A stretch of 64,000 bases of DNA from positions 124,001-188,000 of the forward strand of contig JADLSH010000201.1 of NCBI GenBank assembly GCA_016169945.1. Reading direction: 5' to 3'. Positions 20,801 through 58,577 of the stretch are shown one piece after another; the stretch's first letter is position 1, and each line of letters begins with the position of its first letter. Below the pieces are notes generated by a model. The model searched no databases and was not told where the DNA came from. It saw only the letters and a list, made by a program, of their open reading frames with translations. The stretch comes from Trachythela sp. YZ-2020 (Eukaryota > Cnidaria > Anthozoa > Malacalcyonacea > Clavulariidae). The position numbers and the translations under genes were made by a program.

Positions 20801-21326
20801 AGTTACTGCGTAAGCGAGTATAGCTATATTTTTCACTAATTTTGGTCTATAAACAAAAAAAAACAATGATGGCATTCTACTGTGCATCATGCATTATTGT
20901 ATATCTCAATTTATTCTTATATATTACACATTTACAGAACCGCAAGAATGCAGCAGTTATACATCGCTTGATAACAAAGATCGGAACGTAAATTATGGCG
21001 GCAGTTCAAGATTGTGTGATAATGGTATTTCAACGGGATGGTACAGATTTGTTGGTGATGCTGGAACTCAGATCTCGACGACATGTGTTCCAAGAGATGG
21101 TAACGGAAACAATCTAATATGTTCCACTCATGGTGTTTCGTGGTTGAAAAAAGCTCCTCCTTCTGTCAGTGAGGGGAAAGTCACACGCGCGGTGTGCTTC
21201 AGTTGGGCCGGGGATTGTTGTAATCATCAGAAAGATATTGAAGTGATCAACTGTAGATTCTTCTATATCTACAAACTGGTATCTACAGGTTCTTGCTATT
21301 ATCGATACTGTGGAACTGATGTGTGA
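9325..21326 (+). CDS. Gene A: secreted-type fibrinogen-related / trimerization / coiled-coil / D8C protein (spliced, 5' end not found)
   Basis: Exons with GT-AG borders: 9325-9472, 10989-11110, 11334-11542, 11623-11812, 12451-12554, 12908-12980, 13635-13862, 14889-14927, 15141-15275, 16223-16299, 19088-19150, 19964-20026, 20761-20809 and 20938-21326. Each matches an exon of gene B in order, length and phase, except the 16223-16299 exon and the extra coil at 19964. The product is a fibrinogen-like domain, Cys-rich block, collagen XVIII-like trimerization motif, coiled coil and C-terminal D8C domain. Role is inferred: an extracellular, oligomeric recognition or matrix protein. No signal-peptide exon was found upstream; it may lie before the window or have been lost. 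The exon at 16223 ends out of phase with the next, so the gene may be damaged. Confidence 0.78.
10456..10774. mobile_element. MITE, PIF/Harbinger-like (TTA target duplication)
   Basis: A 319-bp non-coding element with TIRs GGGGCTGATTACATGGAGCG and its complement, flanked by TTA at 10453-10455 and 10775-10777. A 3-bp TWA target duplication is typical of PIF/Harbinger. The interior repeats CAGCCCGG-type motifs. It sits in the first intron of gene A. Confidence 0.82.
11813..12450. other. Gene A intron, nothing recognised
   Basis: Contains GGCAGGAGCCGGGGAAGG with a partly complementary GGCTCCTGGAGAGC nearby (about 12050-12095), perhaps a decayed small element. No exon or known repeat identified. 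Confidence 0.5.
12451..13862 (+). CDS. Gene A exons 5-7: Cys-rich continuation
   Basis: Exon 12451-12554 reads NKMNSCLSKPCRSGFAYW and ends in phase 2. Exon 12908-12980 (73 nt, same as in gene B) reads GVNHDATALVGC. Exon 13635-13862 begins VCCGCFGPVGGTGDYC and contains TYTWFWVRTSLPKRVW. All Cys positions agree with gene B. The segment probably completes the lectin-like fold, but I do not recognise a named domain. Confidence 0.75.
14085..14265. repeat. Tandem repeat, about 16-bp unit (TTGCCGAAAGACAT-like)
   Basis: Roughly eleven diverged copies of a unit around CATTTTGCCGAACGGA in a gene A intron. Frames on both strands stay open here only because the unit lacks stops; the repetitive peptides (GKMSVGK-like) are artefacts. 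Confidence 0.85.
14889..15275 (+). CDS. Gene A exons 8-9: collagen XV/XVIII-like trimerization motif
   Basis: A 39-nt exon (GHCPKDEALLNEG) is followed by a 135-nt exon: VVVVPDAETDKKAPGVPG, then LFKYRTDNKELSIRSNETW. The pattern G-x-L-x-(Y/F)-R-x-(D/K)-x-x-E-L-x-(I/V)-R ... W/F-x-x-V is that of the small trimerization domain in collagens XV and XVIII, placed as there beside elongated regions. No Gly-X-Y repeat is present. The protein is therefore probably a trimer held by this motif and the following coils (inference). Confidence 0.65.
15276..16222. other. Gene A intron, nothing recognised
   Basis: No coding exon seen. It contains ATATTGGTGTGGCC at about 15849 and the related complementary-type GTCATACCAATATGACC at about 16005, possibly the remains of a short inverted-repeat element. 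Confidence 0.4.
16223..20809 (+). CDS. Gene A exons 10-13: coiled-coil linker
   Basis: Exon 16223-16299 (KMFSRKLKDIERKL), two similar 63-nt exons at 19088-19150 (SELKDVKERFYKQNQT) and 19964-20026 (SKLKEVDQKLYKQNQT), and 20761-20809 (MDLKFMEFEKKMIKLL). Leu/Val/Met heptad spacing and high charge indicate short helices. The two 21-codon exons are a duplicated cassette, each in phase 0. The first exon is odd: its last bases AAACG|GTAGGT give 77 nt (phase 2) while the next exon needs phase 0. Gene B has one more G at this junction and stays in frame. A one-base loss or an unseen exon would explain this. Confidence 0.65.
16500..17501. repeat. Segmental duplication in intron, copy A (matches 56095-56816)
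   Basis: This intron sequence recurs in gene B, with shared strings such as GGTCACGTGACTAACAT, AAACTTGGCAGACGCAATAT and CAAAACGCATCTCTAGTATC. Copy B lacks several internal pieces. The match shows that the tandem duplication included introns. Confidence 0.85.
17502..18945. mobile_element. TIR element at the duplicated site, long version
   Basis: Ends GAGAGCTTTAGATTTAACTA and complement-type AATAATCTAAAACTCTC, flanked by TAATA on both sides. An inner inverted repeat (about 18700-18790 against 18835-18925) contains ACGAATCTCGTAGTCGTAG. The exact same host position in gene B holds a related 219-bp element (56817-57035). No transposase is visible; frames inside are short. Confidence 0.7.
19668..19683 (+). 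repeat. Poly-C tract and low-complexity CT
   Basis: An uninterrupted run of C followed by TCCTCCT between the two coiled-coil cassette exons of gene A. Such runs are prone to assembly length errors. Confidence 0.8.
20938..21326 (+). CDS. Gene A last exon: D8C (uromodulin/GP2-type) domain
   Basis: The 389-nt terminal exon encodes about 128 residues of the extracellular D8C domain known from uromodulin, GP2 and many cnidarian secreted proteins. Landmarks: ECSSYTSLDNKDRNVN, LCDNGISTGWYRFVGDAG, TTCVPR, CSTHGVSWL, EGKVTRAVCFSW, CC, EVINC and the terminal YRYCGT. All cysteines match gene B. The domain ends the protein; no transmembrane segment or GPI signal follows, so the product should be secreted. 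A UTR highly similar to gene B's follows the TGA. Confidence 0.88.
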
Positions 21327-23404
21327 AATTCGAAGTGAACCGAAGTTTCGAATCCTTTTTAAAATTAATTTGTTGTTGTAATATTGAGTTGCTGTGATAT
21401 GATTTTTGTGTAAATGGATTAAGGGATGTATTTTGAATAAGATATGCTGTCAAGTTATCGTGAAGACTCAAGTTATAATTGCTTTTTTCAGTGAACTATC
21501 GTGATAAAAACATTGTATAGCATATCGATTTAGATAGTATTTGTAAGAAAATAATATACTGTAAGGTTGATCGTTATAGTAGAATTTCACAATAGTTTAC
21601 CGTAGTTGTGATTTAAGTTTTGTCATATATTTCTAACTAGATATAAAGTAGTTCTAAACAGATGTGTTACACTTTCTCAAAACGTTTAGTTTTTTAGTTA
21701 GTAATTTATTTGATGTCGATTGTATAGGATATGGTTACCCAGCGTAAACTGAATGGGGCAGGGCATTTTTTAATACCGTAGCGTGGTGGGGCATGCATTT
21801 GTTCCAACGAGCCCTTTCTGGGACTTGCTGCCCCAGTTGACTGGGCCCTTTGACCAGGAGTTATGAACTTTCAAAGGCGATAACAAATCAACAAGTCAAT
21901 AGTTTTGTTTTTATTTAGTGAACTGAGTGCAAAATGCGAACAAAAATATCTTTGTTAATTCGGCTTCTAATTCCTTCCCCACCACACCCCCGTCATTTGG
22001 CGACAATTGTACGAAATTTGTTAGTGTGCGTAGCAGGCGGTGAATGGCAACCGAATTTTAGCTACAGCTAAATAACGTTTACTGTAATAATGATATACAC
22101 TGGAATGGAAAAAACGGAGCTCGATATAACATGCTGCGCGGAGGGGCAGGGGTGATCTCCCCTAAATTGGTTAAGTCCGTTCCTAATTCATTAACAATTA
22201 TACTTAACAAAGTTGGGACAAGCAAGTACACACATGCATCCCACCAAGCAATTTAATCCACTAAACCCAATTATAAAACATAAATTTTGTAATATTCTTG
22301 CTATCCAAATTATTTTATTCGGCACAAGAAACTGCAGCAAATAGCTTTTATGGGCGTCAATTTCTCGAATTTTCTTGTTGGAGCATGTCCCCGTAATCCC
22401 CAGCGCATATGTTTGATTGAAAACTCCGTTAATTTTGATCGAATTGAATTCTTAGTAATAATTATAAATCATATAATTTATTGTCTTACGTCAAACGGTT
22501 TATTTATTCAGGAAAGCTTTTGATTCTCAAGAAAGCAATATCTATTATCGCCATGCAAACCTACAAAGAACTAAGTAGAAGTCCTGTCATTATACCTAAG
22601 AAAGTGGCGGGGCCATGGGCCCTTTTGCACGTTTTTCCCCACCACCGAAGAATTCTTAAAAGATGCACTGGAAGTCTGTAGTGCGGCATGGCCGCGGCCC
22701 CTTTACAGTATTCACAACACTTATGATGTGATGTAAAGTAAACTGAATAATGCGTAAATTGTCATACTAGTCAGAAAGACTAGTCAGAAAGGAAATGACT
22801 CACCCGCCCCCGGCACCCGCTTGATTTACGTGCGTCGTAAAAGCTCCGCCACCACTATAAGCCATGCTTTTCAAGCTTGGTTTACACGGATGGTCACTAT
22901 TGATCCCATCTTTAATTTGACTGAGCATGCAGATTATAAGGATTGTGAAAGCTATAAAATACGATTTCAGATCAATTGACAGTGTATTAAAAGTACCTAT
23001 GTTATTACAGAGTACAAAATAGAAACATAAAAATTTCAACCGTTTAATAAGACCTTCCATGTGTAAGCCGACATCAAGCGCTCGCAGCTGACCAATATAA
23101 AGCCTTAAAGGCCAAATCGCCACGGCCAACCGCTTATATAATTGAAGTTTTGCGATGCTCTCTCAAGGGCTGTTTTGCCGGTTTACGTCCGTGGACGGAA
23201 TGGAAGGTGGATGATTTTGATGTGTTGAAATAATATCTCATTAGCAATTAGTTATTTATGTATAAACGAAAAGTTAAGATGTTTAACGAACTGAGATGCT
23301 GTTTGTCTGACCATGTATACTATTAGAAAACTCATTATCTGATCCTGTAATTAACATTTACAAACTCATTAGGGCTGCAGTTTAACTGTCATCATCAATT
23401 ATAT
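21327..23404. repeat. 3' flank of gene A, near-identical to 58578-60652
   Basis: The sequence after the gene A stop matches that after gene B almost base for base, with scattered substitutions and small indels. The match extends through a GC-rich GGCGGGGCCATGG block and into the minus-strand exon below. It ends abruptly at ATCAATTATAT (about 23404), where copy B jumps to the TIR sequence at 60653. Confidence 0.9.
22804..23129 (-). CDS. Candidate first exon of a convergent secreted-protein gene (copy A)
   Basis: On the minus strand this frame has a hydrophobic stretch (FIAFTILIICMLSQIKDG) then DHPCKP and AYSGGGAFTTHVNQAGAGG, ending at a strong donor GG|GTGAGT. The YSGGGAFTTHV-type pattern resembles the start of the C-terminal domain of short-chain collagen C4-like proteins of sponges and cnidarians, which usually continues with a CLP motif. 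I could not find that continuing exon downstream. The exact start codon is unclear: ATG at about 23061 in this copy is ACG in copy B. Family assignment is tentative. Confidence 0.4.
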
Positions 23405-24811: not shown

Positions 24812-25024
24812 ATGGCAACGCCAACTAAAATTGTCTCAAGAACGAACGTTTCTCCCAAAACCAAGGAATTTAATTGTCTGATTTGCTTTCAAAAAGTGGA
24901 AAGAGCTGATTACAGAAGAAAGTTGTTTACGTCAAAGGGGAAAACAAACGTGTGTCAGGAGGACCTTGAGCTTGTGTTGGGAGAGGAAATATTTACAGAC
25001 AACAGTGGGAGTATGGGACGATGA
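24812..25024 (+). pseudogene. N-terminal fragment of a zinc-binding transposon protein
   Basis: The ORF starts MATPTKIVSRTNVSP and contains FNCLICFQKVERADYRRKLF then TNVCQEDLELVLGEE. This is a CxxC-type start resembling the first half of the Cys-rich finger at the N-terminus of transposon proteins in cnidarian genomes. The second CxxC half is missing because the frame runs into the end of the opposing helicase fragment at about 25010. The same start occurs in reverse at 61075-61130. Confidence 0.5.
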
Positions 25025-25256
25025 CAAGACATATCGAATAGATCTGTTCTTGTTCACCACGCTTCAAATAGTCGTAAACAAACGGAGCAATGTGAAAAGT
25101 AAGGCTTTTGCCAGACCCAGTTGGCGAGACCATCAAAACATCACGGACGGTCGGGCCGGAGAGATATGCTTCTACAACTTGCCGTTGATTTTCTCTTATT
25201 TGTTCGAATCCAACCTTCCTAAGGCCATAACTTATAGCATCTTTGATTGAATACAT
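24993..25256 (-). pseudogene. RecQ-like helicase, N-terminal fragment
   Basis: Superfamily II DNA helicase start. The frame reads SIKDAISYGLRKVGFEQIRE, then QRQVVEAYLSG (Q-motif-like region), DVLMVSPTGSGKSLTF (Walker A, motif I) and ICLVIVP (motif Ia). About 80 residues remain of a protein that normally exceeds 400; everything after motif Ia is gone at the junction near 25015. It begins just inside the right TIR. The copy at 60905 shows it is element-borne and not a host RecQ gene. Confidence 0.7.
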
Positions 25257-25323: not shown

Positions 25324-26676
25324 ATGGATGGCTTTAACCAATTTTTTACGTCAGTCTTCACCTCCGACACAAGTTCTTCACCCCTTTTCACTCCCTCTAG
25401 TTCAGCTTCTAACTCTCTTGACTCACTAAATGTATCTGAATCCGATGTTCAGTCTTTGTTGTCCAATTTGTCACCCTCTAAGGCTACTGGTCCTGATGGT
25501 ATTCCAGCTTACCTTCTAAAGCGATGTTCTGAGGTAATTGCCCCTTCTTTGACTGCTCTCTTTAAGTTATCTCTTCAGCAGGGTGTTTTTCCTTCTGAAT
25601 GGAAAGTTGCTAATGTTGTGCCTATACCCAAAAAGGGTGACACTCATGAGGTCACTAACTACAGACCAGTTTCCTTACTCTCTCAAGTCTCAAAAGTTCT
25701 TGAACGTTTAATTTTCAATCAGGTTTCTTCTTTTGTTGAAAACTCCTTGTACGATCTTCAACACGGCTTTCGTTGCAAAAGGTCGTGTGTTACTCAACTT
25801 TTGAGTGTACTTCACGACCTTGGTCGTACTCTTGACTCTGGAATGGAAACAGACCTGATTTATCTCGACTTTGCTAAAGCGTTTGACTCGGTGTCCCATA
25901 GCAAACTTTTGTTCAAACTTAAATCGTTTGGAATCTCAGGTCCACTTCTTAACTGGTTTGCTGATTACCTTCGTGATCGCAAACAGTGTGTTGTCGTTGA
26001 AGGAGCTTCCTCATCTTATCTTAATGTTACCTCTGGGGTGCCACAAGGTAGTGTAATAGGTCCTCTCTTATTCATTCTTTATGTTAATGACCTTCCAGAG
26101 GTAACCAATAATAGTACCGTTGCACTTTTTGCTGATGACAGCAAGTGTTATCGTGCTATACGATCACCAGTTGATCGTGATCTCCTTCAGCTTGACCTGG
26201 ACGCTATGTCCAACTGGTCACTTAACTGGAAAATGAAATTTAATGTCTCGAAGACGCTCCTACTTAGGATATCCCGCAAACGTAACCCTCCAACTCATTG
26301 CTACTTTCTTAACAACGATCCAGTTAAGAGCATAGCTAACCAAGTAGACTTGGGTGTTGTTATCAGTAATGACCTAAAGTGGTCCCCTCACATCGCCAGC
26401 TGCACTGCAAAAGCCAATCGTATGCTTGGTTTTCTTCGTAGGAATTGTACGCAAATGTCTGATATTCGCTGCCGTAGGCTTCTTTATCTCTCATCCGATC
26501 TCATCTGTCATATGGTAGTGAGATCTGGGCACCCCAAGGATCGTCACGTGATCTTGCGATCATCGAGGGTGTTCAAAGACGAGCTAGTAAATTTATCCTT
26601 CAGGATTATGAGCTGCCATATCCTGAACGCCTTAAGAAGCTTAATCTATTACCAATATCCTACTGGTTGGAACTAA
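25324..26676 (+). pseudogene. LINE reverse transcriptase (long frame)
   Basis: A 450-codon frame covering fingers, palm and part of the thumb of a LINE RT, with both catalytic sites intact (DFAKAFD and FADD). The last 55 or so codons are out of frame: the homologous protein continues as SEIWAPQGSSRDLAIIEGVQ in another frame. The apparent C-terminus is thus an artefact of a frameshift near 26505. Confidence 0.82.
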
Positions 26677-26758
26677 AGGATATCGTCTTCTTTTTAAATG
26701 TAAGCATGGTCTCTTCGACCTAGATATCTCCTCTTTCGTCACTTTTTCTTCAAACAGC

Positions 26759-27025
26759 TTGTCTCACACCCGTTCGGACAACTTGCTTCATGTTAATCAT
26801 TGCAGGACTTCTCTCTTTAGGAACTCTTTTTTCAACCGAATTGTCTTTCTCTGGAATAATCTCTCTCCCACCATTCGTAATAGTTCATCCGTTTCCTCCT
26901 TTAAAAACAGACTAACTGTCCATTACTCTTCTCTACTTCATTCATCTTTCGATGTAAACAGAATGCGCACTTGGAAAACATTCTGTTCTAAGTGCCGCTC
27001 TTTCAACTTAAGCTGTTGTTCGTAA
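26759..27025 (+). pseudogene. LINE ORF2 C-terminal remnant
   Basis: This frame encodes the end of the same LINE protein: LSHTRSDNLLHVNHCRTSLF, FFNRIVFLWNNLSP and the terminal FCSKCRSFNLSCC. It rejoins the RT after two frameshifts. The C-x-x-C tail is a common ending of this LINE group. Confidence 0.75.
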
Positions 27026-27634: not shown

Positions 27635-27637
27635 ATG

Positions 27638-34833: not shown

Positions 34834-34842
34834 TTATGCGCC

Positions 34843-46300: not shown

Positions 46301-49300
46301 TTTCTATCATTTCTTTCTAGAGTGTAGCCTGGTATGGATACTAAATTATTTGTAAATGATTGATCTAAACGGGTTTCATTAAGTGCAAGAATATCTATAC
46401 ACCCAGAGCTCATATAAGCCTTTAATTCATCAATATGTGCTGGTAAACTATTGATGTTCAGTGCGGCAATTTTAAAACCTCTAGTGTTAGAAATTTCATT
46501 CAGTAACCCTTGACCCTTATTGGTCACACCTTCCAGACTCAGAGAGGAAGCGTCGACGGCCACCGTGGGCAGTCTTTTATTAATGGAAGGATCTTCTGAT
46601 AAGTTCATGCTGTTAACACTTAAATTATACGTATTTGTTGTATTTAGATTATTCAAATTTATAGAATCTGATATATTATCACTATTTAATCTATTTATAA
46701 AATCTGATACAACTATATCTACCTTATCTCTGATTATGACTAGATTGTATGACATCATTAGTTATTGACTGGAAAATTTTAGGAAAAAGAGAGAATTTCT
46801 ATCTAGAATCTGTATTTCCTGTCCCACCAATAATAACCAGACCTGTAAGAACCTTCCCTAACATGTCAGCAACAAACACAGACATTTGTGGTGGTCACAC
46901 CAATATGCATGGCAGATTTGTGAGATCAGTACCTATACGTGTAACCTTGTATTTCCATACCCTAATTCCCGTATATCTTTTAAGTGACGATGTTTCGTTT
47001 TTAATTTCCTAAGAGTGAGAGATTCATCTATAGGCTCACCTTACATGAACATTAATAAAACATCGAGAGAGAAATGCATGAAAAACTAATAATTCATATA
47101 GAAAAGTATGATGATAGCTCTTAGATTCTAATATGTTGCGAATATTTTAGTATTACCTTTAATGAACCAAAAACAAATAAACTCACTTTTTGCGATTCTG
47201 ACAAAAGACACTGGGTATCTCCATAAACTTGTGCGGTAGCCAAGAGTAAGGTTTACCTCCGAGCAGCATAACGTGGGCATTTCAACAAGTGATGAGTCAC
47301 AGCCTGCACCACAAACACAAATTGGTGATAAACTACAACTTGTCTTTAAAAACATCATATATAATTAATATGATGTTATTAATAAGATTTTTTTGCACTT
47401 CACTTGGTTGAACTAGAATACTGGGTTTGGTGGATAATCCAATGAGTAGATATATACACAACAATATTATATATAACAATTAAGCATGCGCCGCGGATCT
47501 CGCATTAAATATGTCAGACGTTCAATTTTCATATTCTGCATGCCTCTCTGAGAAGAGACTGGGAAATGAACAAAATATATAAGCAAGAAAGTGATGGAGG
47601 TAGACAGATGGACTGCATAATCAATAGAATTTCTCAACATGGTGACCGAAGTACATTATGCTTCTAAGTTTCTATAATATCTTTAAGGTGTGGTGTGACA
47701 TGACCACCGATGGCGGGGGATTTACATTGATTGGTAGAACAAACAACTCGATCACGTGGTCAGTTCCATCCAATGACATTCCAGTTGAGCCATACGGTAA
47801 ACCTCATTGGTCAAGCTCCCTTGGAAATGCACCAATTTTGGACTTCAGGGTACAGATGGCTACGAAGGAAGATTTTAAATCCACTATAGCACACTGGTGG
47901 GTATCCGGTTGTTTTTTGTCTACCGCTCGAAACTGTTTTGGACAGTTTGTTAAAAGTAGTCGTTTCTTTACTTTCGAAATACACTCTTTTTTCAATAAGC
48001 AAAAACTAGCTACATCTTCTTCTCCCTCCCTTATAAGAAATTCAGTGTTCTATATATTTGGTATTTTTCGGTCATAAGTGCAGTGTGTTTTGATTCACGC
48101 GGACGAGTTACTGAGAGTGCTCGATACAATATAGGCCGTGGGATGAGGGTCGAAAATGTTCAATTCCGTAGCACCCCTCGTGTAACTACATAATTTTTAC
48201 ATGAATCCATAGATTATAACTTACTTAGTTAGAATCCACTTCCCCCCAAGCAAAATAGTTGCACAAATTGAAGTACAACCTCTCCAAAGTTCGGGCTTTC
48301 TCGTGTTTCGAAATCCACGAACGGCCATTGTTGTGTTGCAACTACGCATGCGCTTGACCACAAAACACTTAATGCGCACGCGCAGATAGGAAAATCTCAA
48401 CGCAGGACTGGACAAGAAAAAAATTATGAAATGTGCGAAAGCAGGGCTGAAGTAAAACAAGATGACATCGGAGTGTTTTAAAAATATATGATATTTTTAT
48501 GTTCTGTGCATTTTAATGGCGTTCGCCAAACATTCTGAGCAATGTACCGTGTCAAGCACTCGCCAGGAACACTTCCAAGCCAACATTACAATAATAACTT
48601 ATTAAAAATATGGTGTTATTTTATACTACAGTAATTGCATGACGTTTTTGCAAGCAAATCTGTTTTTCAGGCTTTAAATATTATCACAATCCTAAACATT
48701 ATAGAACACGCATACCGTAATTTCTCTATTAATTTCGGGGAGGGGGGGGCTTATTTCTAATATATACAAAGAGTCTGTTTGCACGTTTGATTCTCTTTAA
48801 TATAAATATGCAACATCGGGTACAGTGATGTTACGTACCAAAGTATCAGTAAAATATCATAATTATCTTCAAAATACAATACTTTCACGCTTCACGATTT
48901 TATAAATTAATTGCTTATAGGAGGGGGGGGGGTGCTTAATAGATAAATTACGATATACCATAAATAAATATTACTCGGTGTTCACAATCTTATTTATTTT
49001 CTAACTCTCTTCCCATCAATTTTATTAGTCCAGGTTCCTTGTTTATTTATGCAGTTGCCTTCATCAAATTCTTCATCACTATTTTCAGCTTTACTCAACA
49101 TATGTTCCTCAACTAAATCAGAAGTATCCAAGTTCTCAGCATACACAATTTCACTAACATTTCTAGATTTAGGCAAATAGAATACCAGCTAGGGATAACT
49201 GTTAATTAGCCGTTGCTTGAGCTCGGAAGACCTGTATTTCGATGCATCCACATTCTCAGTTTCCTTAGCAATGACAACAAATTTCTCAAGTAAGTCCATC

Positions 49301-52300
49301 ATGTACTTTATTGATTTTCCCTTGATGATTTCAGTTTCGATGACTTCTTTACAGAATAAGTTGCAAGATATTTCATACACTGGTGCACATGTTGTGGTCG
49401 TCTTTGCCTCCCTTGCAAGGAATATGGTATAGTTGCTATAGCAAACTTTGTGGTAGCGGACCTCCAATGCAACACAGTCTTTATCTCCAATCTGCACAAG
49501 TATCCGCTCATCATTTTTCCTCTCAGCAGCTGTACATAATAAGCCAGCATCAATTGTACTTGCCAACACTAGTGGTGTTCCTCTTCTCTTTTGTGTTTTC
49601 TACACAAAACATACAAGTTTAGAATGCCTGTTTAAAAATGGCATTTACCAACTAAGGACCTGTTTATCTGGAACCCGGGCTGGCTCGCTGACCGGACCAG
49701 CCCGCTTAGCTAGATCTCGCCATGTAATTGATTTTGTAGTAAAAACTACTGTGTGTTTATATGGACAAGCGGGCTGGTCCGGTTCCAGAGATCTCGCTTG
49801 AAAAAGCCGAGATCTCGCTTACCAGGATGAAAATTTCCCCATATAAACATTCACTAACCGGGTCAGCCCGGTTGCCGGGATGAAAGTTGAAAGACGGACG
49901 CCACCACCAATTTGTCTGCGCGCTATTTTAAGAACTGTCAAAACAATGTCAAAGGTCAAAACAACAAAATCATCCCGCCTGCCGGGATGAAATTTTCTCA
50001 TATAAACACAAGCTGGGCTGGCCCGGTCAGCGAGCCAGCCCAGGTTTCAAATAAACAGCCCCTAAAGCAGGGTGAATTTGACAAATTAACCAGGTATTAA
50101 AATAAAGCTACTCTGGTTTGTAAAGTTTATGAACATTGTGTTCATAAACTTTACAATCCAGAGTAGCATATATTATGCCTGTTTAAATAGACTTATTATC
50201 TGGATAATTGACCCATTAAGATCCAACGCATCCAATAGGTACTCTAAAATATCATATAGCCATATAGGTATATGCACAAGACAGTATTTACCTGTAAGGC
50301 ACAACATGACAACTTTTCCACCAAAGGGTGGTCCATAGAATATAAAGATACTGTACACAAGAAATTGTACATAATCATACCTTGTCTCTTGAAAACCAAG
50401 ACGAATCTCTTCCACAAATAATGCAGCATTCTGGTAGTACATGCTTGTTTCTTTGAGGCAAGGTCTTACTTGGATCCACTGAATTGCGTGTAATCTTTCT
50501 TCTGGGTTCCATGTGGCATGTGTGGTCTACGGTATTAGCGACCTTTTCCGTGCTTGTACTAGCTCCGTTTTCCTCTTTTCTCTGTTGTCTACGGATCTTT
50601 TCTTCATCGCTAAATTTCTTGTAGCATTTCATGTGGTGGTACCATTCTAAATCAAAACTTTCGTTTGTGTTCTCTGCCAAGTATGAATAGTGACGAATTC
50701 GTCATCAAACTTACCATACGAATCCTTCGCTATCTCAGCTTGCAGGCAATTAAGTTTCGCCCATTTATTCCTGCAATCGACAAATTTCTTAAGCCTTTGA
50801 CGAGTAACTTTAGAAAGTTGCTCGGTTACGCCTTCAAAATGCATAAAACATGAGGATATTCGAATTTTCGACATATCGTCATTAGTAGCCATCTTGAATA
50901 TGTTTTATTGAGATCAGTTTTCCTATCTGCGCGTGCGCATTAAGTGTTTTGTGGTCAAGCGCATGCGTAGTTGCAACACAACAATGGCCGTTCATGGATT
51001 TCGAAACACGAGGAAGCCCGAACTTTGGAGATGTTGTACTTCAATTTGTGCAACTATTTCGCTTGGGGGGAAGTGGATTCTAACTAAGTACGTTCTAATC
51101 TATGGATTCATGTAAAAATTATGTAGTTACACGAGGGGTGCTACGGAATCTGTTTTCTAAGCATATTTTCGACCCTCATCCTACGGCCTAATAATGATCC
51201 AGCAAATATAGTAAAGGACTGGTTGACCTACCTCAAAGTCTTCAACCCCGTCGGTTCACGCGCACCTTATATAGGATCTTCATATAAGAAGCTACCGTGG
51301 ATTGCATTAGCACCTAGACAATAATTAAACATGAATATTTAATGTTTACACAAAACCTTATAATGTTTTCAAGGGCATTAGTTAGCCCTTCACGTTCACC
51401 TGGTCTCTCTCTGATTGGCTCACCTAATCGAAACAATTCAACAGACATGTCTTGAAACACTTTAAAACTTTGCGTTAGCATTAAATATATACTTGTGAAT
51501 GATGTTCATTGGTATATAGATAAAATCTGCAGTATCTCACGTGGTTAAATCTGGCTATAGGTCCTTTAGATTACAATCTACACGCCTATTGAAGAACTTA
51601 TTGACAACGACGGACGGATGTGATCAAAGATCAGCTGGAATAGGAAATATTGCCTATGTTAAAGATCTACAAGCAGAGCGTATTGTTACAACTACATTGC
51701 GATGTTCTAAATTTGGCTTTGCTCATCGTCCTTCGTCGCCTTTTGGTTGGGTACGTATGGATATCTTTGATATACTGCCTTAAAAGTTTAAAAAATGACT
51801 TTGACATATATGGCTCCAACTTAATGCCCAAATTTTGGTAATTGTACCTTATAAAAAGTTTCCTTTTTGGCAAAACTGTAATGTTTATGACATAGGTTGC
51901 GTTTTTTAATATAGAGAGCTTGCGTGCATGCATGCTTTTTCTGTTTCTTACGTGCAACTCTCCGGTATTTTCTGCAATGTAAATAATATAGTTAATAATA
52001 AGGCTAATGAATGTTCTCTATTCTTCAGCCGAAGATGAATTTATGTTTGGCAAAGTCATGTCCATGGGGCTTTGCTTATCTTGTGGCCGGCAATTACAAA
52101 CATCACATAGATCATTATGGGGCTTTCAGGTATACAATCACTTTATCTACATACAGCTGCGGCTAAAACTGCTCGGAAAAAATTTGATCAAAATGAAATT
52201 TGATCAAATATTTTCAAGTTTTATAAGACATATTTTCTATTTCAGTTTGATTGCCAACAAAGGTTGCATGGGTAAATCACGTCAACAAATATTACATTAT

Positions 52301-55300
52301 GCCAAAAGACTAGACAGTGTAAAAGTTTGTTTTTTCACATTTTACAACTTCGTGTTCTATGTGGAATGTCATTCAGACTTCGAGACACAACGAGTTCAAC
52401 GTAGTATATTTCAATACCTACCAATAAATAAATAAATAAATTGTTTTTTCTCATCAGTTACCGCACAACCAGAAGCATATCAGGAATGGAATATAACGCA
52501 ACCGCTTTTGTTGGTTGTGATAATCAAGTTGTAAGTGATCATTAATATATCCTTTCCAGCCGACAACTTTTATTAGGAATATATAAAACAAAACAAAACA
52601 TGTTCTAATATATAGAAACATATATTGTCAGCGCTCTATGGATTTATGTTTCAACAAGAAAACACTATATACGTTAAAATTGCCATAAAATTGCTATTTC
52701 AAAGTCTTTATCAAACGTACTGTAATTACAAAAATGAGCTGCTATAATCGGTCAAGGAACGATGACGTCATCAAAATATTACCGTATAGTAGCTACAGTC
52801 TCGTATACCTTTCAAATAGTTCGTACCATGTATTTTAATCATACAAAGTTGTCATAGATTTTCTGTAAACTGTATTTCAGTGCTGTGCTTGTTACGGACC
52901 TGTGGGAGGTACGAAAGAATACTGCGCCGAAAATTGTAAATCCATTAATGGTGGTACAATAACAAAGAATGTGTTCACGTGGTTCTGGGTGCGATCCAGT
53001 CTTCCCAAGAGAATCTGGAAGAAATGTATGGATTATGAAGTGAAGAAAGCTAATGGAAAGTTGATCTGGTACAAGCTGGTTGGCCATAGTGTTATTCCTG
53101 TTGAGGTAATTATTTCTCCCTTTATTTTTGACATCGCTTGCTATATGAAAACACAATTAAACCATGCATCAAAAGAACGTCCAGGATAATTCATTTTGTG
53201 TCCGAATTCAACTTTGCATGGCTGTTCACTTTTTATGGCACAGTGGTTAGTACATTACATCTTCCACTTGGGTTCAATTCCTGCCGCACACAGTTTCCTG
53301 ATTACAATTTTGCCTCACATGTTAATTGTGCGGAGGTGCCTCCAATCGTTTTGCACCAAGGTTTTCTCCTGTTGTTGCACTGGAGTTACAGGGCGTACGT
53401 AGTAAAGAACAGAACTTCCAAAAAGTATTCTAACACTAACTCTGGCTGGATTTTCTAATCAGGGGAAGGGATTTTCAAAAAGATTTTGTCGCTCTTTGAG
53501 TGTGTTTTATTTCAAAGTGTCTTTTAGCTGTACAGTTGAAACAATGGTCAAATATATTTCTTGCCTTCTCATCGGATTTGGAAGAATCTAAAATCACACA
53601 ATGAAAATCGATCACCTATCCCTTCCCCTCATTGTATTAAAGTATTGGATATTGGATTTTGCTACTGTATTGCATATTCTTGCTCTGTCTGTGATTATAG
53701 TGTAAATGTTGTATGTCAGAACTAGTAATTTCTTATTGAAATAGAAACGTTTCTGACAAAATCTGTTTAAAATTTTAATCAAAGGGCCGCTGTAGCAAGG
53801 ATGCAGTACTTCTTCATGATGGGGTAAGTATTTGAGCAATTTGTTTTGAAATATCTATTGATCTATATATATAAACCATGCGCTGTACGTAAAACTGTAT
53901 ATGAAGCAATCACAACCAAGTATGTCTTCTAAATCCTGAATAATGTATGCCAAAGAATGCCCTATACGGCTATGCATCATCTTATTATAAGTTAATAATA
54001 ATAATTATTATTATTTTATTATTTTATATAGCTCACTCTACATAACGAGATGATCGCTTTACAAGTATAAATAATCAACATTAAAACTAATTACAACAAT
54101 TTACTACAGCTACAATGGTTAAGAATATGCTAATTTAAAAAGATGGGTCTTTAACTGTTTCTCAAAAGAGTCAATTGTCCTGACAAGTCTAATATGTTGA
54201 GGTAGAGCATCCATAACTTTGGAGCTTCTATGCTAAAAGAACGATCACCAAGTGTTTTATACGATCGAATACGCGGGATCTCTAAGAGACATTGGTTACT
54301 CGATCTGAGATTATATTTACAACTATACTCTCAGACTTAACAGTGACAATATTAATGTAATATTAATGCTGTGAGAATACGCTGACTTCTGGTTTCTGCG
54401 CCCTGCGCGGCAGACGCTTTTAAATTTTTGGTTATTACGGACGTCTGCGCAGCAGAGCGTTATATCGTGTTCCGAATTATTATTTTTTTATAGTACTTGA
54501 AGAAATGAAATTAGTTCTGAGTTGTAATTCCAGATTTTTTGTCATTGTGTAAGTGATGAACGATGTCTAATCTTTCTGTGTAAAACTGACAGATATAGTT
54601 ATCTAAAAGAAAAATAACTGATTAAGTGGTTAATAAACCTTGTCGTTTGCGTTTGAAAACTTTTATTTCGATATATCTTTCAAATTGTGTGGCTAATTGC
54701 GTACTTTTGGCATAGATAACGGACAGCGACATGCTGGGAGCAAGCAAACTAACTAATCTGCACAGACGGTAATAACCAAAGAACTACCGTCTATGCTCGT
54801 AATCTATTCCTATAGTCCGATTATTTGGTGACAGCATAATTCTTACTTGTCATGCAAATTATGGCAATTAGGTCAAATTCAATTGTACTGCTGTCCTTAT
54901 ATAGATTGTGGTCGTACCAGACTCCACAACCGCGCAAGAAGTACCAGGTATCGATGGTTTACTGGAATTCCGCAAAGACAAGCAAGAACTTTATGTAAGA
55001 ACAAACAAAACATGGAATGAAGTGGCACAGAAGAGGGAGGTAGGTCAACATTCATAGCAAGTTGAAACTGTAAGTAACTCTCAAATTGTACATTAGTATT
55101 ATGCAGAGGTGGAAAGAATTGAACCTGAATGAGGAAGGACATAATCTTAAGCTTCAAAATATATGATCTAAATCCTAGAATAGTATGCCTATAAGATTGA
55201 TACAAAAGAAAAAATAGAAACAACTGTATTCAATTTTCAAAAAAATAGAGATGAATGGAATAACTTTTAATGATTTTTTAGTCGATAACTGAACATACAT

Positions 55301-58300
55301 ACTGCTGCATATCTCATGAAGCAGATCCATTCTTCGACTTTCGCCATTAAAGGCATTCCATGCATAGGTTTGCCATTCCGTACAAATTCCCCAATCCGAA
55401 ATAAATGGACTAAATTAAATAAATTTAATTCTATATTTGTTGTTCTAAATCCCATAAAATGTGACCGATTTTGAATTGGATATAGGTCGGATTTGCACAG
55501 AATGCTTCTGAATTATATTTAAATGACAACATCTTAATTGCCATTAAATATACCAACCATGAATACTTCTCCAACCTCTTGTGTGTAGATTATGAAAGAA
55601 ACGAACGGAAAAATTAATTTTAATCTGGGTGAAATAGAGAAACTTCAGAAAACACTGGATAACCAAACAAAGCGGGTAAGTTTTCCTTTTCTTATATTGA
55701 TCTCAATTTTGTGTTAATTTTCGAGTGTAATATTTTACCATCTCATTTTGTTTCCTGAAGATTTTAAAACAAATTGACGCGAACCAGAAGTTCTACTTGG
55801 TTCAAATTAAGAATCTTGAAAGAGCATCAGTTCTTGTTCAAAACTGATTTGTACTCTCGTTTATTATTACCCTGACTTACATTGTTTAGGTGCATGCAAG
55901 AGGACAATTTGCTATCGCGGCACACACCTGGCCGACGTCCACTCTAGTAAACTCAAATCTCTACCTAAATCTTTAGCATTCCATTATGCATAACTAAATA
56001 GAGCTTATATAGATACGGTATCGCGCGTCTTTAAGCTGAAATAAGAATATATTTAATTAAATTATCATTCACACGAATAATAAAAACTGGATGCCTTAGA
56101 GAAAATGACAGTAATGTAACTGGTCACGTGACTAACATAAAAGTGTTATGCATGTACGAAATATTTTTCAAATTCAATATTTCACACTAAAACATCACGA
56201 AATACGTAAGCAAGGGGTATGGGTATGTTCACACCGAGTTTTAGGAAATATGGTGACTTTTCACCGCATTTAAATGCATTTTGTTTTTCGCAGCTATATG
56301 TTGGTTCATCCAACATAACGGCCAAAAACAAAAATGTGTATTTGACGTGTTAAAAGTGTTTGTTTCCTCTAAAACTTGGCAGACGCAATATTGAAACGAC
56401 TTCTTACATATTTGTTGAGGTTAGGATAATAAAATCTACTTTGAAGAAGTGCTAGTCGCCTATTGGCATATGAACGCATGCCTAAAATCAAGTAAATTGT
56501 AGTTAGAATGATACACTGCCTATATACCAGAGTAAAACTTTAACTGGCATATGTAGCGTTTGAACATTCTCATATTTTTGTATATTTTTTACACATTCAA
56601 TTATATGTCTTCTTTACTGCAGTACACAATAAACTTAAATATCCCCTTCTGCTTTGTCTGAAACTTCCGAAATCAGCCGTTCTGTTTATATACTTTATGT
56701 AAAACTATTGTAGTTTCGAACCAGTAAATATTAACAAATATATCCCAAAACGCATCTCTAGTATCCCGTTTTGATGACGTCAGTGATCGCGTGCATGGTA
56801 ATAATAGGGAACTATGGATTTGACGACGGCTACGCGAACGACTACGGCTACGAGATTTTTCCGTTAAATATCTGCTAATACAAACTCAAAGTTGTACTCG
56901 CTTTGGCTCAACTGTTGTTATAAAGCTGTGCTGTGCCAAAGAGAGGATGATGACAAGTTTGTATTAGCAGATATTTAACGGGAAAATCTCGTAGTCGAAG
57001 TCGTTCTCGTAGCCGTCGTCAAATTTAAAGTTCCCTAATATCCAATTGGAGATGACCACCCTTACCCGGTAAGAAGTTTTGTAGACTTTGCGCAAATTGA
57101 AGTGCCTATCATCCAAAGTACATTATTCTCAGCATTGGTTAGCAAATTTGAAACACACTTTCTAGTATAAACACCCTATTGCAACCTAAAATATCTATAT
57201 TCTTTAAAAGGATTTGAATGTGCATTCCGAGCTGAAAGATGTCAAAGAAAGGCTCTATAAACAAAATGAAACGGTAAGTGTGATAGACTTTATAGTATAG
57301 AAAAATACTGCAGGAATATGGAAATCTAGCATTTTTAAGGAATAAAGTATAGTAACAATGTTGAAAAATACCAAAATCTATGAACAAAATCAAACGGTAG
57401 GTCTGCATGGTACATTTGATAGCCCGTCGCACGTCTTATAAAATGGCGAAGGCGCTGATTGAAATCATCTTAACCAGATGAGTCCTGATTGAAAATCCCG
57501 GTGTTTCATCATATGAATGTTAAAGTTTTCCATTCTTATCCGTCGTAACGCGTAGATGTAGCTACCTAATTTGTTTGGAGTCAATTGATGCCGGGATCTA
57601 CGTTGAGAATGAATCGATATTCTTGATTCGAGTGCTATTATTGCGGCAGCCTTTACAACCTCAGTTCACTGTCATGAAAAGATGGAAGAATATTTTCCAC
57701 ATTTGAAGAAACCGGTACAACTCATAGCTGGTATATACTCCAGCTTCTTGCACGAAAGTTGCAGAGTAGCAAAAATGAAATGTCCAAAAACTGACGTCTT
57801 ACACGTAGAGTATAACCGCATAATTTCAATGTCAAGATTATATTTTAATGTTAACTAGTGTAAACACATTGCCAATTGCATTTTCTGTCTGCTTATATCG
57901 CTTCAGCTCATTAGTAGTAAATCTAAATATGTACACCATCATATCGGAAGTACGTTATATTGTCATTTCTACCATGCATTTATGTGGCAATTAAATAGTG
58001 TTGTTATATTTCAGATGGATCTAAAGTTTATGGAATTTGAAAAAAAGATGATCAAGTTACTGGGTAAGTGAGTATAGCTATATTTTTTACTAATTTTGGT
58101 CTATAAACAAAAAAGAACAATGATGGCATTCTACTGTGCATCATGCATGATTGTATATCTCAATTTATTCTTATATATTGCACATTTACAGCACCGCAAG
58201 AATGCAGCAGTTATACATCGCTTGATAACAAAGATCGGAACGTAAATTATGGCGGCAGTTCAACATTGTGTGACAGAGGTATTTCAACGGGATGGTACAG

Positions 58301-58577
58301 ATTTGTTGGTGATGCTGGAACTCAGATCTCGACGACATGTGTTCCGAGAGTTAAAACAAACATTCGAAAATGTTCCACTCATGGTGTTTCGTGGTTGAAT
58401 GGAGCTCATCCTTCTTTCAGTGAAGGGAAAGCCACACGCAGGGTGTGCTTCAGTTGGATCGGCAATTGTTGTTGGAGACAGAAAGATATTGAAGTGATAA
58501 ACTGTGGATTATTTTATATCTACAAACTGGGTCCTTCGCCAGCTTGCTTCTCTCGATACTGTGGAACTGATGAGTGA
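37279..58577 (+). CDS. Gene B: secreted fibrinogen-related / trimerization / coiled-coil / D8C protein (spliced)
   Basis: Exons: 37279-37344 (signal peptide), probably 38095-about 38213, then 41417-41564, 42869-42993, 47688-47896, 51561-51750, 52029-52129, 52458-52530, 52881-53105, 53785-53823, 54905-55039, 55589-55675, 57211-57273, 58015-58063 and 58192-58577. From 41417 on, phases join without a stop. The product of roughly 600-680 residues is a signal peptide, fibrinogen-related domain, Cys-rich block, collagen XVIII-like trimerization motif, coiled coil and D8C domain, with no membrane anchor. It is the intact-looking paralogue of gene A. The exon at 38095 does not join the next one in phase, so a further small exon or a different boundary is needed there. 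Confidence 0.82.
37590..37740. repeat. Short tandem repeat around GGACAGTCCTTAA
   Basis: Four copies of (G)GACAGTCCTTAA spaced by 30-55 bp, alternating with CCTGACC and AAACCCCTAT. It lies in the first intron of gene B. Confidence 0.75.
37909..38051. mobile_element. Foldback MITE in gene B intron
   Basis: Inverted arms CTTTTCCACTCGTCGCAAAA and the complement of CAAAACCAACTCGCAAACTC-type sequence, about 45 bp each, around an AT-rich loop. No clear target duplication. Confidence 0.7.
38095..38213 (+). CDS. Gene B possible exon 2
   Basis: After the acceptor ATATTACAG the frame reads LECQGGQEKRIYDPGNLDVA and KTINQQLPHKASIL, in phase with exon 1, before a stop at 38218. The peptide is plausible for an extracellular N-terminal segment. 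No consensus donor gives phase 0, and gene A lacks a visible counterpart, so its membership is uncertain. Confidence 0.4.
39106..39267. repeat. 25-bp perfect inverted repeat enclosing a 31-bp palindrome
   Basis: CAAGACACTTAGCCTACGTA at 39106 is matched by its complement ending at 39267. Between them, 39128-39158 is a perfect palindrome (CTGTACATGCACAAA-C-complement). A direct repeat of AAAATATCCTTTCCTATAAC lies at about 39212 and 39290. Confidence 0.8.
39886..40515. repeat. Two-copy tandem duplication, unit about 310 bp
   Basis: Both units run from TTTCTTTCTGTTATAATG through ATGAGAGGAATAGATGCC and TTCTGTTTGACTAACTGCG to AAGCAGTTCGCGTGCATAAA, about 85-90 percent alike by eye. Minus-strand frames in both keep the peptide AVSQTELN...SIPLM, but a coding role is unproven. 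Confidence 0.8.
41417..42993 (+). CDS. Gene B fibrinogen-related domain, first two exons
   Basis: Exon 41417-41564 reads RIPVVNGYDPGLC, then KEVLVMNRDDEEKIIICVKD and GVYQW. Exon 42869-42993 reads TVGEFFNPGYDCSDVLNKRQ and DAKDGFYWITLRLSNPIK. Lengths (148 and 125 nt) and phases match gene A, allowing one extra codon. A minus-strand LINE begins about 20 bp past the second donor. Confidence 0.82.
42957..43385 (-). pseudogene. LINE C-terminal domain remnant
   Basis: Minus frame: KALVLPYLDYCSEVWG, LQKLQNRTSRIITFSDYDVR, LGWDTLDQRCTKQLATSVYK and FHSHNLRGSTQNR. These are the post-RT blocks of CR1-like ORF2. Residues after about 43016 are intronic and exonic host sequence, not LINE. Confidence 0.75.
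43640..43936 (-). pseudogene. LINE reverse transcriptase palm remnant
   Basis: Minus frame with LELYGVDSNSINWFRSYLSG, CGVPQGSVLGPLVFLIYIND and MMYADDTCL, i.e. the RT motifs around the catalytic Asp pair. The upstream DFKKAFD-type block lies in a broken frame near 43940-43990. Confidence 0.82.
44345..45130. mobile_element. Non-coding insertion inside the LINE
   Basis: It interrupts the RT exactly between the NKSTGLNG and CRLLKEAS-type blocks. TACCAT repeats at both junctions. Inside, AAAGCCTCTGCCAGATTTC (about 44474) and its complement (about 45095-45113) form an inverted repeat. No coding capacity recognised. Confidence 0.6.
46029..46758 (-). pseudogene. LINE endonuclease remnant
   Basis: Minus-strand frames 46758-46270 and 46310-46029. 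Motifs: FKIAALNINSLPAHIDEL, ILALNETRLDQS, YTLERNDRNRNGG, TWYRPPSATTD and NIIGDFNCDVSA, the ordered blocks of an APE-type LINE endonuclease. A frameshift separates the two parts. Confidence 0.8.
46760..47687. other. Gene B intron, no confident feature
   Basis: Contains the likely 5' remains of the LINE and a minus-strand frame (47128-47358) rich in Cys (SPICVCGAGCDSS) that I cannot assign. Otherwise AT-rich. Confidence 0.4.
47688..51750 (+). CDS. Gene B fibrinogen-related domain, exons 3-4
   Basis: Exon 47688-47896 (209 nt, as in gene A) reads VWCDMTTDGGGFTLIGRTNN, SITWSVPSNDIPVEPYGK and ILDFRVQMATKEDFKSTIAH, ending within a Trp codon. Exon 51561-51750 (190 nt, as in gene A) completes the Trp and reads SFRLQSTRLLKNLLTTTDGC and GIGNIAYVKDLQAERIVTTT. 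The intron between has been enlarged by the transposon at 48132-51190. Confidence 0.85.
49656..50062. mobile_element. PIF/Harbinger-like MITE (TAA target duplication) nested in the transposon
   Basis: TIRs GGACCTGTTTATCTGGAACC and complement-matched GGGGCTGTTTATTTGAAACC, continuing into GGGCTGGCTCGCTGACCGG. Length 407 bp, with TAA at 49653-49655 and 50063-50065. The interior repeats CCGGGATGAAA. The GGGGCTG-TTA tip resembles the MITE at 10456-10774, so the two may be related families. Confidence 0.85.
50103..50164. repeat. 60-bp near-perfect palindrome
   Basis: GCTACTCTGG-TTGTAAAGTTTATGAACA, a 3-base centre, then the complement. It could form a long hairpin. It lies in the intron of the orphan transposon gene. 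Confidence 0.85.
52029..53105 (+). CDS. Gene B Cys-rich exons
   Basis: Exons 52029-52129 (PKMNLCLAKSCPWGFAYLVA), 52458-52530 (SISGMEYNATAFVGCDNQV) and 52881-53105 (CCACYGPVGGTKEYC, FTWFWVRSSLPKRIWKKCMD). Phases (2, 0, 0) and most lengths match gene A. All cysteines are shared with gene A. One large longer frame at 52007-52435 is a shadow of the first exon in the wrong frame. Confidence 0.78.
53232..53292 (+). repeat. tRNA-derived SINE relic
   Basis: TGGCACAGTGGTTAGTAC (A-box-like) and, about 32 bp later, GGGTTCAATTCC (B-box-like). The stem pairing of a working tRNA is not apparent. Located in a gene B intron. Confidence 0.6.
53785..55039 (+). CDS. Gene B trimerization-motif exons
   Basis: Exon 53785-53823 (GRCSKDAVLLHDG) and exon 54905-55039: IVVVVPDSTTAQEVPGIDG then LLEFRKDKQELYVRTNKTWN and EVAQKRE. 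The run G-x-L-x-F-R-x-x-x-x-E-L-Y-V-R ... W-x-x-V closely follows the collagen XV/XVIII trimerization domain. Both exons have the same lengths as in gene A (39 and 135 nt). Confidence 0.7.
54005..54312 (-). mobile_element. 5'-truncated LINE 3' end
   Basis: On the minus strand, LRSSNQCLLEIPRIRSYKTL then GDRSFSIEAPKLW and, after a one-base frameshift, RLVRTIDSFEKQLKTHLFKL and a stop at 54119. This is the C-terminal block of a CR1-like ORF2. An AAT/ATT-rich stretch at 53990-54020 is the 3' tail. No ORF longer than 60 codons remains. Confidence 0.75.
54313..54904. other. Gene B intron, inverted AT/GC motifs only
   Basis: CGTCTGCGCAGCAGAGCG (about 54440) and CTGCACAGACGGTAATAACC (about 54756) lie near GGTTATTACGGACG, suggesting a decayed inverted-repeat element (about 54430-54800). 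No exon. Confidence 0.45.
55589..58063 (+). CDS. Gene B coiled-coil exons
   Basis: Exons 55589-55675 (IMKETNGKINFNLGEIEKLQ, KTLDNQTKR; 87 nt, phase 0), 57211-57273 (LNVHSELKDVKERLYKQNET) and 58015-58063 (MDLKFMEFEKKMIKLL). Gene B has one 21-codon cassette where gene A has two. Hydrophobic heptads predict a short parallel coil following the trimerization motif. Confidence 0.75.
56095..56816. repeat. Segmental duplication in intron, copy B
   Basis: Matches 16500-17501 with several deletions. Shared strings include GTGTTATGCATGTACGAAAT and CCCGTTTTGATGACGTCAGT. It ends at the TIR element insertion site common to both genes. Confidence 0.85.
56817..57035. mobile_element. TIR element at the duplicated site, short version
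   Basis: A 219-bp foldback with ends GGGAACTATGGATTTGACGA and the complement of CCGTCGTCAAATTTAAAGTT-type sequence, flanked by TAATA as in gene A. The inner arms CGAGATTTTTCCGTTAAATA are also inverted. It is related at the tips to 17502-18945, but much shorter. Confidence 0.72.
57372..57396 (+). pseudogene. Remnant of the second coiled-coil cassette exon
   Basis: AAAATCTATGAACAAAATCA then AACG|GTAGGT matches the last third of gene A's exon 19964-20026 with its donor, and the following intron also matches. The acceptor and first two thirds are gone, so gene B has lost this exon. Confidence 0.7.
58192..58577 (+). CDS. Gene B last exon: D8C domain
   Basis: Same domain as gene A's last exon, one codon shorter. 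Landmarks: ECSSYTSLDNKDRNVN, LCDRGISTGWYRFVGDAG, CSTHGVSWLNGAHPSF, RRVCFSWIGNCC, EVINC and CFSRYCGT. The first 23 full codons are identical in DNA to gene A; later parts carry dense amino-acid changes with cysteines kept. It ends in TGA with no membrane anchor. Confidence 0.88.

Follow-up and report, generated by a model that had tools for sequence, protein, structure and literature searches.

Hypervariable loops and exchanged terminal exons in the D10C genes of an octocoral

The window analysed here is a stretch of 64,000 nucleotides from the octocoral Trachythela sp. YZ-2020 (bases 124001-188000 of contig C202). It carries two neighbouring genes on the forward strand, gene A (9325-21326) and gene B (41426-58577), whose terminal exons encode a small cysteine-rich D10C head. 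Loop residues beside the disulfide cysteines of this head carry a strong signal of diversifying selection, and conversion-like recombination has exchanged the terminal exon, together with its flank, between paralogous frames of ancient origin, single loops being mosaic. We put the probability that selection and exchange are here at work in a recognition protein at about 0.72. That the partner recognised is microbial in particular is suggested by analogy with related proteins, and falls a little short of an even chance.

Variable loops in the D10C head

Exon A (20938-21326, forward strand; first whole codon at 20940) encodes 128 residues with ten cysteines and has a stop at its end; exon B (58192-58577, forward strand; first whole codon at 58194) encodes 127 residues, also with ten cysteines. 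Both score above the curated cut-off of 27 bits for the Pfam domain D8C_UMOD (PF23283), at 38.2 and 42.2 bits respectively. A phmmer search of PDB with exon A recovered human GP2 and uromodulin (UMOD) at E 6e-18, with residues 3-125 of 128 covered and the cysteines in register. An AlphaFold2 (AF2) model of the head, built with 32 sequences, had a predicted local distance difference test score (pLDDT) of 73 and a predicted template modelling score (pTM) of 0.72, residues 40-51 being poorly modelled. The top 12 Foldseek matches to this model were all GP2 or UMOD decoy modules (best E 1.6e-7), with a query TM score of 0.66-0.68 and a root-mean-square deviation of 4.7-6.8. As modelled, the terminal exon encodes the D10C ('decoy module') fold.

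Four hypervariable loops were recognised from the site models and the divergence profile. Loop 1 (residues 21-28; 21000-21023 in A and 58254-58277 in B) lies around Cys2, loop 2 (residues 53-60; 21096-21119 and 58350-58370) lies between Cys3 and Cys4 and contains an indel, loop 3 (residues 90-96; 21207-21227 and 58458-58478) lies around the Cys6-Cys7 pair and loop 4 (residues 114-121; 21279-21302 and 58530-58553) around Cys9, all on the forward strand. In 40-base windows the divergence between A and B is clearly peaked: one peak precedes Cys2, another falls between Cys3 and Cys4, and two more surround the Cys6-Cys7 pair and Cys9, some of the intervening stretches being almost or wholly unchanged. 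Loop 3 is bordered in the AF2 model by strands 80-88 and 96-104, and seems to match the betaE-loop-betaF region that is given as the Bence Jones epitope of uromodulin in PMC8930769. The same paper lists the GP2 disulfides as C1-C8, C2-C9, C3-C6, C4-C10 and C5-C7. Because bonds of the GP2 type tie C2, C3/C4, C6/C7 and C9 together, the four loops would be expected at one end of the head, and by this analogy are probably grouped at its disulfide-rich end.

A PF23283 search of the 578-Mb genome (396 contigs) gave 65 places. The close family used here comprises 29 exons (L009-L037), 12 of them on C202, seven on C118, four on C242 and six on C131. Twelve other PF23283 loci (L001 and L038-L048; L002-L008 repeat seven of them) stand outside the tests, and 24 places were not fetched, including C5:513168 and C179:3605114, which match the Dendronephthya protein P0040 at 62 and 59% and may belong to the family. 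Among proteins with a named source, those of Paramuricea clavata are the nearest to the exon, all organism-named matches in a full-length search at E<=1e-20 were octocoral (Paramuricea, Dendronephthya, Xenia), and a scan of viral contigs gave no relative. Five subfamilies can be distinguished: I, which includes A and B, with five loci, II with seven, III with six, IV with eight and V with three. The 22 of the 29 loci outside subfamily II are free of stops and frameshifts, and 21 of these 22 have all ten cysteines. Subfamily II (L011, L015, L019, L020, L025, L026 and L037) is decaying: six of its seven loci have a stop or frameshift, four sharing one stop after FYI, and the seventh lacks Cys4. 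Alleles, or duplicates created by the assembly, may be present among the family loci. L010 and L018, at 58 kb and 395 kb on C202, are 99.6% identical over 6.5 kb and lie 336 kb apart; they either arose by a recent segmental duplication or are two haplotypes that the assembly has joined.

Site models (M0, M1a, M2a, M7, M8a and M8, in an implementation of our own) were fitted to 21 of the 29 exons, omitting the seven loci of subfamily II and L018, near-identical to L010, and were run separately for I, III and IV. Twice the log-likelihood difference (2dl) between M7 and M8 was 24.8 for I, 38.4 for III, 41.7 for IV and 126.5 for all 21 intact distinct exons, with M8 placing 10, 10, 18 and 10% of codons respectively in a class with a ratio of replacement to silent rates (dN/dS, or omega) of 6.8, 11.7, 7.5 and 6.2. 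The comparison of M1a with M2a gave 2dl of 24.3-42.0 (36.5 in III, 42.0 in IV), against a maximum of 2.27 in 28 parametric bootstraps under M1a (14 for IV and 14 for III; recombination not simulated). With separate trees for each third of the exon, M7-M8 2dl was 19.9 in I, 28.9 in III and 29.1 in IV. The per-site tests on further paralogues that the first-pass annotation had proposed therefore bear out its idea of diversifying selection, a class with omega of ~7-12 being favoured in three subfamilies separately and also with per-third trees.

The signal is concentrated in the loops. The ratio of the proportions of replacement (pN) and silent (pS) differences was 1.18 in loops against 0.67 elsewhere in the core of subfamily I, 1.73 against 0.55 in III and 1.70 against 0.70 in IV, where the 'loop' set consists of AF2 segments adjoining cysteines picked after the variable sites were known and the comparison is not blind. 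In window profiles, drawn for four of the five loci of I, five of six in III, five of eight in IV and five of seven in II, the loops of I, III and IV coincide with peaks of divergence. Most of the 18 residues identified by the site models adjoin cysteines 2, 3-4, 6-7 and 9; in the AF2 model 13 of them fall in non-strand segments and five (8, 60, 96, 98 and 121) in a strand or bridge.

To differing degrees, the same sites vary in different subfamilies. Subfamilies I and III, with 14 and 9 variable columns, share six (P 1e-4), and III and IV share three (P 0.02); the between-subfamily correlation was reached by 0, 2 and 4 of 123 circular shifts. Sharing extends beyond this genome. In 17 external proteins the 18 site-model residues have a median entropy of 2.35, against 0.54 for the 109 others (P 5e-8), and column entropy in the external proteins and in the window's genome shows a rank correlation of 0.72 over 127 columns. 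This external set is 17 of 18 aligned proteins (P0034 left out), the 18 having been chosen from 39, and two of the 17 are named Paramuricea.

Selection weighed against conversion, hypermutation and decay

The first-pass annotation had started from a comparison of exon A with exon B, and its hand count proved exact on recount: six codons have silent changes only (27, 51, 78, 91, 103 and 108), 28 have replacements, one is an indel (codon 54), and all ten cysteines are unchanged. The first 23 codons, described as nearly identical, are identical from codon 1 to codon 23; the split codon that precedes them differs. Exon A and exon B differ at 48 of 381 sites (12.6%) and the aligned flanks (450 bases upstream and 1000 downstream) at 54 of 1390 (3.9%; Fisher P 3e-9), and replacement sites alone (~37 of 298) also exceed the flank (P 1e-7).

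Several observations weigh against diversifying selection as the explanation. In the A-B pair the silent sites of the exon (~10 of 83) lie above the flank as well (P 0.002), and the whole-exon dN/dS by the method of Nei and Gojobori (NG86) is 0.99 (dN 0.138, dS 0.139); the first-pass annotation had held that a value at or below 1 would refute its claim, and the ratio of this pair is such a value. Within the pair pN/pS is 1.05 in the loops and 1.10 in the rest, and pS is 0.29 in the loops against 0.06 elsewhere. These raised silent sites imply that part of the exon island is older, imported sequence. Because conversion imported older silent changes the pairwise ratio is uninformative, and selection must be shown from paralogues; pairwise dN/dS was dropped as a decisive test.

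Comparison of exon with flank across the family gave mixed results. Median divergence of the exon, the 450 bases upstream and the 300 bases downstream was 0.118, 0.040 and 0.053 in I, 0.042, 0.027 and 0.040 in III, 0.067, 0.067 and 0.020 in IV, and 0.018, 0.000 and 0.020 in II. The exon exceeded the upstream flank in 6/6 pairs of I, 15/15 of III and 7/21 of IV, and in 10/10 pairs of the decaying subfamily II too; it exceeded the downstream flank in 7/10, 11/15, 21/28 and 11/15 pairs of I, III, IV and II. Flanks more than 25% diverged were dropped from these counts as unalignable (upstream four pairs of I, none of III, seven of IV and five of II; downstream none). Flank windows also peak, at 14-16% from +460 to +480 in III and 14-15% from +640 to +660 in I. 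The claim that the exon diverges faster than its own noncoding flank is thus true of the A-B pair, but silent sites are raised there too and no family rule emerges. Exon against flank was dropped as a family-wide test. The flank argument holds for A and B without extending to the family as a whole. It is the site models, together with the variable sites that subfamilies have in common, that carry the case for selection; neither the A-B pair by itself nor the family-wide counts show it.

Further points of the same kind attach to the paralogues. Omega under M0 is 0.80 in I, 1.05 in III, 1.41 in IV and 0.85 over all exons, none of which differs from 1 (2dl 0.02-1.93). The pairwise homoplasy index (PHI) gave P 0.001 for IV and for I+V+II together and 0.01 for all, and recombination can inflate site models; partitioning by exon thirds lowers this inflation and does not remove it. 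Loop pS is raised in IV (0.12 against 0.03 elsewhere). The overlap of variable columns between I and IV is weak (three shared, P 0.09). Lastly, His replaces Cys7 in L023, an otherwise intact exon, and P0026 has Tyr at that position.

Gene conversion acting alone would leave the exon island as no more than a mosaic of older segments from paralogues, set in a homogenised background, and positive selection would play no part. The silent excess of the island, the A-B ratio of 0.99 and the mosaic matches between loops described below all fit such an origin. Against it stand the classes with omega of ~7-12 in each of three subfamilies, the loop pN/pS of III and IV set beside the low values elsewhere in the same exons, and subfamily III, in which PHI finds no recombination (P 0.63; 0.17 in I) and M7-M8 2dl nevertheless reaches 38.4. 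We regard conversion alone as unlikely. Local hypermutation of loop codons, with no selection for change, is far less probable again. It would explain why loop pS is raised in IV and in the core of I (0.19 against 0.07), but in III the loop pS (0.063) is barely above the value elsewhere (0.055), and all but one of the 22 intact exons retain the ten cysteines that adjoin the loops. Nor is there a loop excess in subfamily II (six of seven loci), with few changes overall: pN is 0.021 in loops and 0.018 elsewhere, pS 0 and 0.010, and the highest exon window (5.3%, near loop 3) is close to the flank maximum of 5.0%. L025, which has a frameshift, was excluded from the dN/dS, exon-flank, loop and cysteine counts. 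The decay of subfamily II and the whole-exon M0 omega near 1 might also suggest relaxed constraint or decay of D10C exons in general. M8a, in which the extra class has omega 1, was however rejected in favour of M8 in all three of subfamilies I, III and IV (2dl 24.1, 37.4 and 41.7), A and B retain open frames and ten cysteines, and non-loop pN/pS is 0.55-0.70 in the core of I, III and IV; relaxed constraint is scarcely credible as the explanation.

Exchange of heads and loops between ancient frames

Over 309 codons the frame exons of A and B differ with pS 0.77 and pN 0.26, and the A/B split is therefore old and the protein conserved. Beside these diverged frames lies a 3' tract common to both genes (20093-23404 and 57428-60652, forward strand), which is 84.7-90.7% identical as far as ~20643 and 94-100% identical thereafter. 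From ~20644 to 23362 (~2.7 kb) identity in 150-base steps stays at 94-100% except at the exon island (83.3 and 86.7%), and it fades upstream over 20093-20643. At 22763-23362, downstream of the gene, identity rises to 98.7-100%, as if the centre of the tract lay outside the gene. The two had been described as tandem genes; they are indeed neighbours, but this is too simple a picture. Both are ancient duplicates whose 3' ends were recently homogenised, and they are two of 29 close relatives on four contigs.

Stalk and head also have discordant affinities. The VPGLFKYR exon of gene B (54905-55039, forward strand) shows 19 differences in 135 positions from its counterpart in L014 and 52 from its counterpart in gene A (15141-15275, forward strand), whereas the D10C exon of B groups with that of A (48/381) and not with L014, which belongs to another subfamily and is ~75% identical over the exon region. 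Single loops have further sources. Loop 2 of B differs at one of 33 bases from subfamily V (L022/L034), columns 107-118 of B differ at one of 36 bases from L014, and columns 23-33 of L009 are identical over 27 bases to three loci of subfamily II. L022 (3821-4428) and L034 (reverse strand) are 98% identical over 608 bases around the exon and otherwise have in common only a 74-base piece; this stretch is either an exon-sized conversion tract or the result of insertions on both sides. The nearest frame exons found upstream of subfamily III heads are P0040-like, at a distance of 30 kb on C118 and 11 kb on C131, as are those upstream of subfamily I heads on C202; this is at most suggestive of exchange. 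Ancient frames with a near-identical 3' tract, the discordance of stalk and D10C and the mosaic loops together imply that heads move between frames and loops between heads. The first-pass annotation had offered, as the second of two explanations, gene conversion of the flanks with selection keeping the exon different; the conversion part of it is borne out by the same three observations.

The frame of gene A comprises an N-terminal part resembling fibrinogen-related domains (FReD), a Cys-rich exon, the VPGLFKYR exon, coil exons and a short exon 2, followed by the terminal D10C exon. Its exons, on the forward strand, are 9325-9474, 10989-11110, 11334-11542, 11623-11812, 12451-12554, 12908-12980, 13635-13862, 14886-14930, 15141-15275, 19088-19150, 19952-20026, 20761-20809 and 20938-21326. 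Splice sites and phases join 11 of them into one open frame; the exon at 9325 and the weakly matched one at 14886 (E 0.16) come from tblastn with P0040 and lie outside the joined model, and a first exon with a start codon was not found for gene A. Gene B, also on the forward strand, has the same exon order (41426-41566, 42862-42996, 47688-47896, 51561-51750, 52029-52129, 52458-52530, 52881-53105, 53782-53832, 54905-55039, 57211-57273, 58015-58063 and 58192-58577), with nine exons joined into one open frame and those at 41426, 42862 and 53782 taken from tblastn. The Dendronephthya protein P0040 (603 residues) has a corresponding order of a hydrophobic start (by eye), a fibrinogen/intelectin-like region, a Cys-rich part, a VPGLLKYR segment, a coil-like stretch and, at the C-terminus, D10C. 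In its N-terminal region P0040 gives a match to XEEL lectin (E 5e-5). Fibrinogen_C lies below the cut-off of 22 bits in gene A (20.4) and P0040 (17.7), and PF00147 is precomputed for the relative P0043; five upstream open reading frames gave nothing above cut-off in a Pfam search, the best being Fibrinogen_C at 19 bits against 22. Nothing is encoded after the head, the stop standing at the end of the D10C exon; P0040 likewise ends after its D10C, and a zona pellucida (ZP) module is absent from the models of A and B and from P0040. The predicted product is probably a secreted, multidomain protein, and is probably oligomeric with a stalk. The VPGLFKYR exon may resemble a collagen XV/XVIII trimerisation domain.

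The same N-terminal frame occurs in P0051-P0054, P0056, P0060, P0063 and P0067 (Xenia and Dendronephthya among the sources) with a PF07534 head (precomputed Pfam) replacing D10C. As the frame is combined in octocoral proteins with other heads, PF07534 among them, it is modular, and head swapping extends beyond D10C. Contigs C105, C255, C277 and C357 carry more arrays of P0040-related frame exons, many with internal stops; the PF23283 search gave no D10C exon there. Elsewhere in the window, open frames resembling, by eye, the endonuclease/reverse transcriptase of retrotransposons without long terminal repeats (non-LTR) lie at 4153-7424, 25324-27025, 42957-44035 (reverse strand) and 46029-46761 (reverse strand), two of them inside gene B. 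Positions 1-486 and 950-1132 hold a tandem repeat of short period (11-base offsets), of which there is an inverted copy ~0.5 kb away.

A putative recognition protein and its known relatives

In the mechanism that we propose, the hydrophobic start, the fibrinogen/intelectin-like region, the Cys-rich part and the coil would carry the head outside the cell. There the four loops would sit together at a disulfide-rich tip, stapled by C2-C9, C3-C6, C4-C10 and C5-C7, and the tip would bind fast-changing partners, for which microbial surface molecules are our best guess. Conversion would spread heads among frames while selection would keep the loops different. In PMC8930769, uromodulin and GP2 are described as catching FimH via a high-mannose glycan in the groove between the beta-hairpin and D10C. 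According to PMC11415648, loss of zebrafish omc5, a gene of a D10C-ZP cluster, makes the fish sensitive to bacteria, though this is another species and a related domain; a uromodulin-like gene of Nematostella is induced at wounds (PMC4229989). It is the functions of uromodulin, GP2 and omc5 that favour a microbial ligand.

Two results count against a recognition protein of this kind. The VPGLFKYR exon has no Pfam match, and the FimH-binding glycan sites (UMOD N275, GP2 N65) are without counterpart in exons A and B by alignment, the N-L-T before Cys9 of UMOD (N275) aligning with K112-L-V. No N-X-S/T sequon is present in exon A or B, and some other family members have one elsewhere. A glycan-decoy mechanism was rejected because those sites are missing from A and B. 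Any binding by the heads would probably be through the protein surface of the loops. In seven of eight subfamily IV exons (L010, L018, L024, L029, L030, L035 and L036) the segment WLNGTHPS contains an N-G-T sequon, which uromodulin has at the same place and A and B lack.

The same combination of selection and exchange could be directed at self, in allorecognition or gamete recognition, a reading that overlaps with our own and differs from it in the ligand. Octocorals are colonial, and by reasoning alone hypervariable array genes would fit self/non-self loci equally well. On the other side, the genes encode no membrane anchor downstream of the head, and the nearest characterised D10C proteins (UMOD, GP2 and omc5) act on bacteria (PMC8930769, PMC11415648). 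A self partner appears to us rather improbable, if less so than conversion alone.

To our knowledge, the immune and self-recognition genes of octocorals are little known. Literature searches judged by titles and the beginnings of abstracts, in a library without most subscription journals or any bioRxiv preprints, gave no paper dealing with selection or exchange in the D8C/D10C genes of octocorals. The domain itself is already known; within that coverage its fold was not found described as a hypervariable surface. In human uromodulin and GP2, D10C is known as a glycan bait for bacteria, whereas this cnidarian seems to use the fold as a variable binding surface. We would tentatively entertain, as possible though doubtful, a combinatorial repertoire in octocorals, in which ancient secreted frames in large arrays trade a 3'-terminal cassette with a hypervariable, disulfide-stapled D10C head. 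If so, conversion and diversifying selection would together create new specificities, and antigen or self would be recognised on a uromodulin fold directly by the protein surface instead of by a glycan decoy. The 22 of 29 loci with an intact head, 21 of them with all ten cysteines, offer a testable set, and a decaying subfamily beside active ones provides a case for telling selection from gene conversion.

The closest structural parallel is the decoy module of human GP2 and uromodulin, with which the octocoral heads share ten cysteines in the same order and a match in sequence and fold; in A and B, however, neither a ZP module nor an epidermal growth factor (EGF) domain follows the head, and the FimH glycan sites of the human proteins have no counterpart. 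The omcins of teleosts, in the sections of PMC11415648 considered, resemble the present family: their D10C genes are clustered and have expanded in one lineage, and here too a contig may hold several D10C exons. They differ in that omc5 has five D10C domains and a C-terminal ZP module, which is absent here, and those sections report no selection test or cassette exchange. The same overall order, beginning with a hydrophobic start (by eye) and ending in D10C, is found in octocoral proteins such as LOC114520857 (P0040) and LOC114526893 (P0043) of Dendronephthya gigantea and LOC124437433 (P0048) of Xenia. Their loops differ from those of A and B, and they are annotated as 'uncharacterized', 'hypothetical' or 'D8C domain-containing'. 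Finally, the match of the N-terminal region of P0040 to XEEL lectin, and weakly to Fibrinogen_C, recalls the fibrinogen-related proteins (FREPs) and intelectins, although Fibrinogen_C is below its cut-off here and the part that varies is the D10C head.

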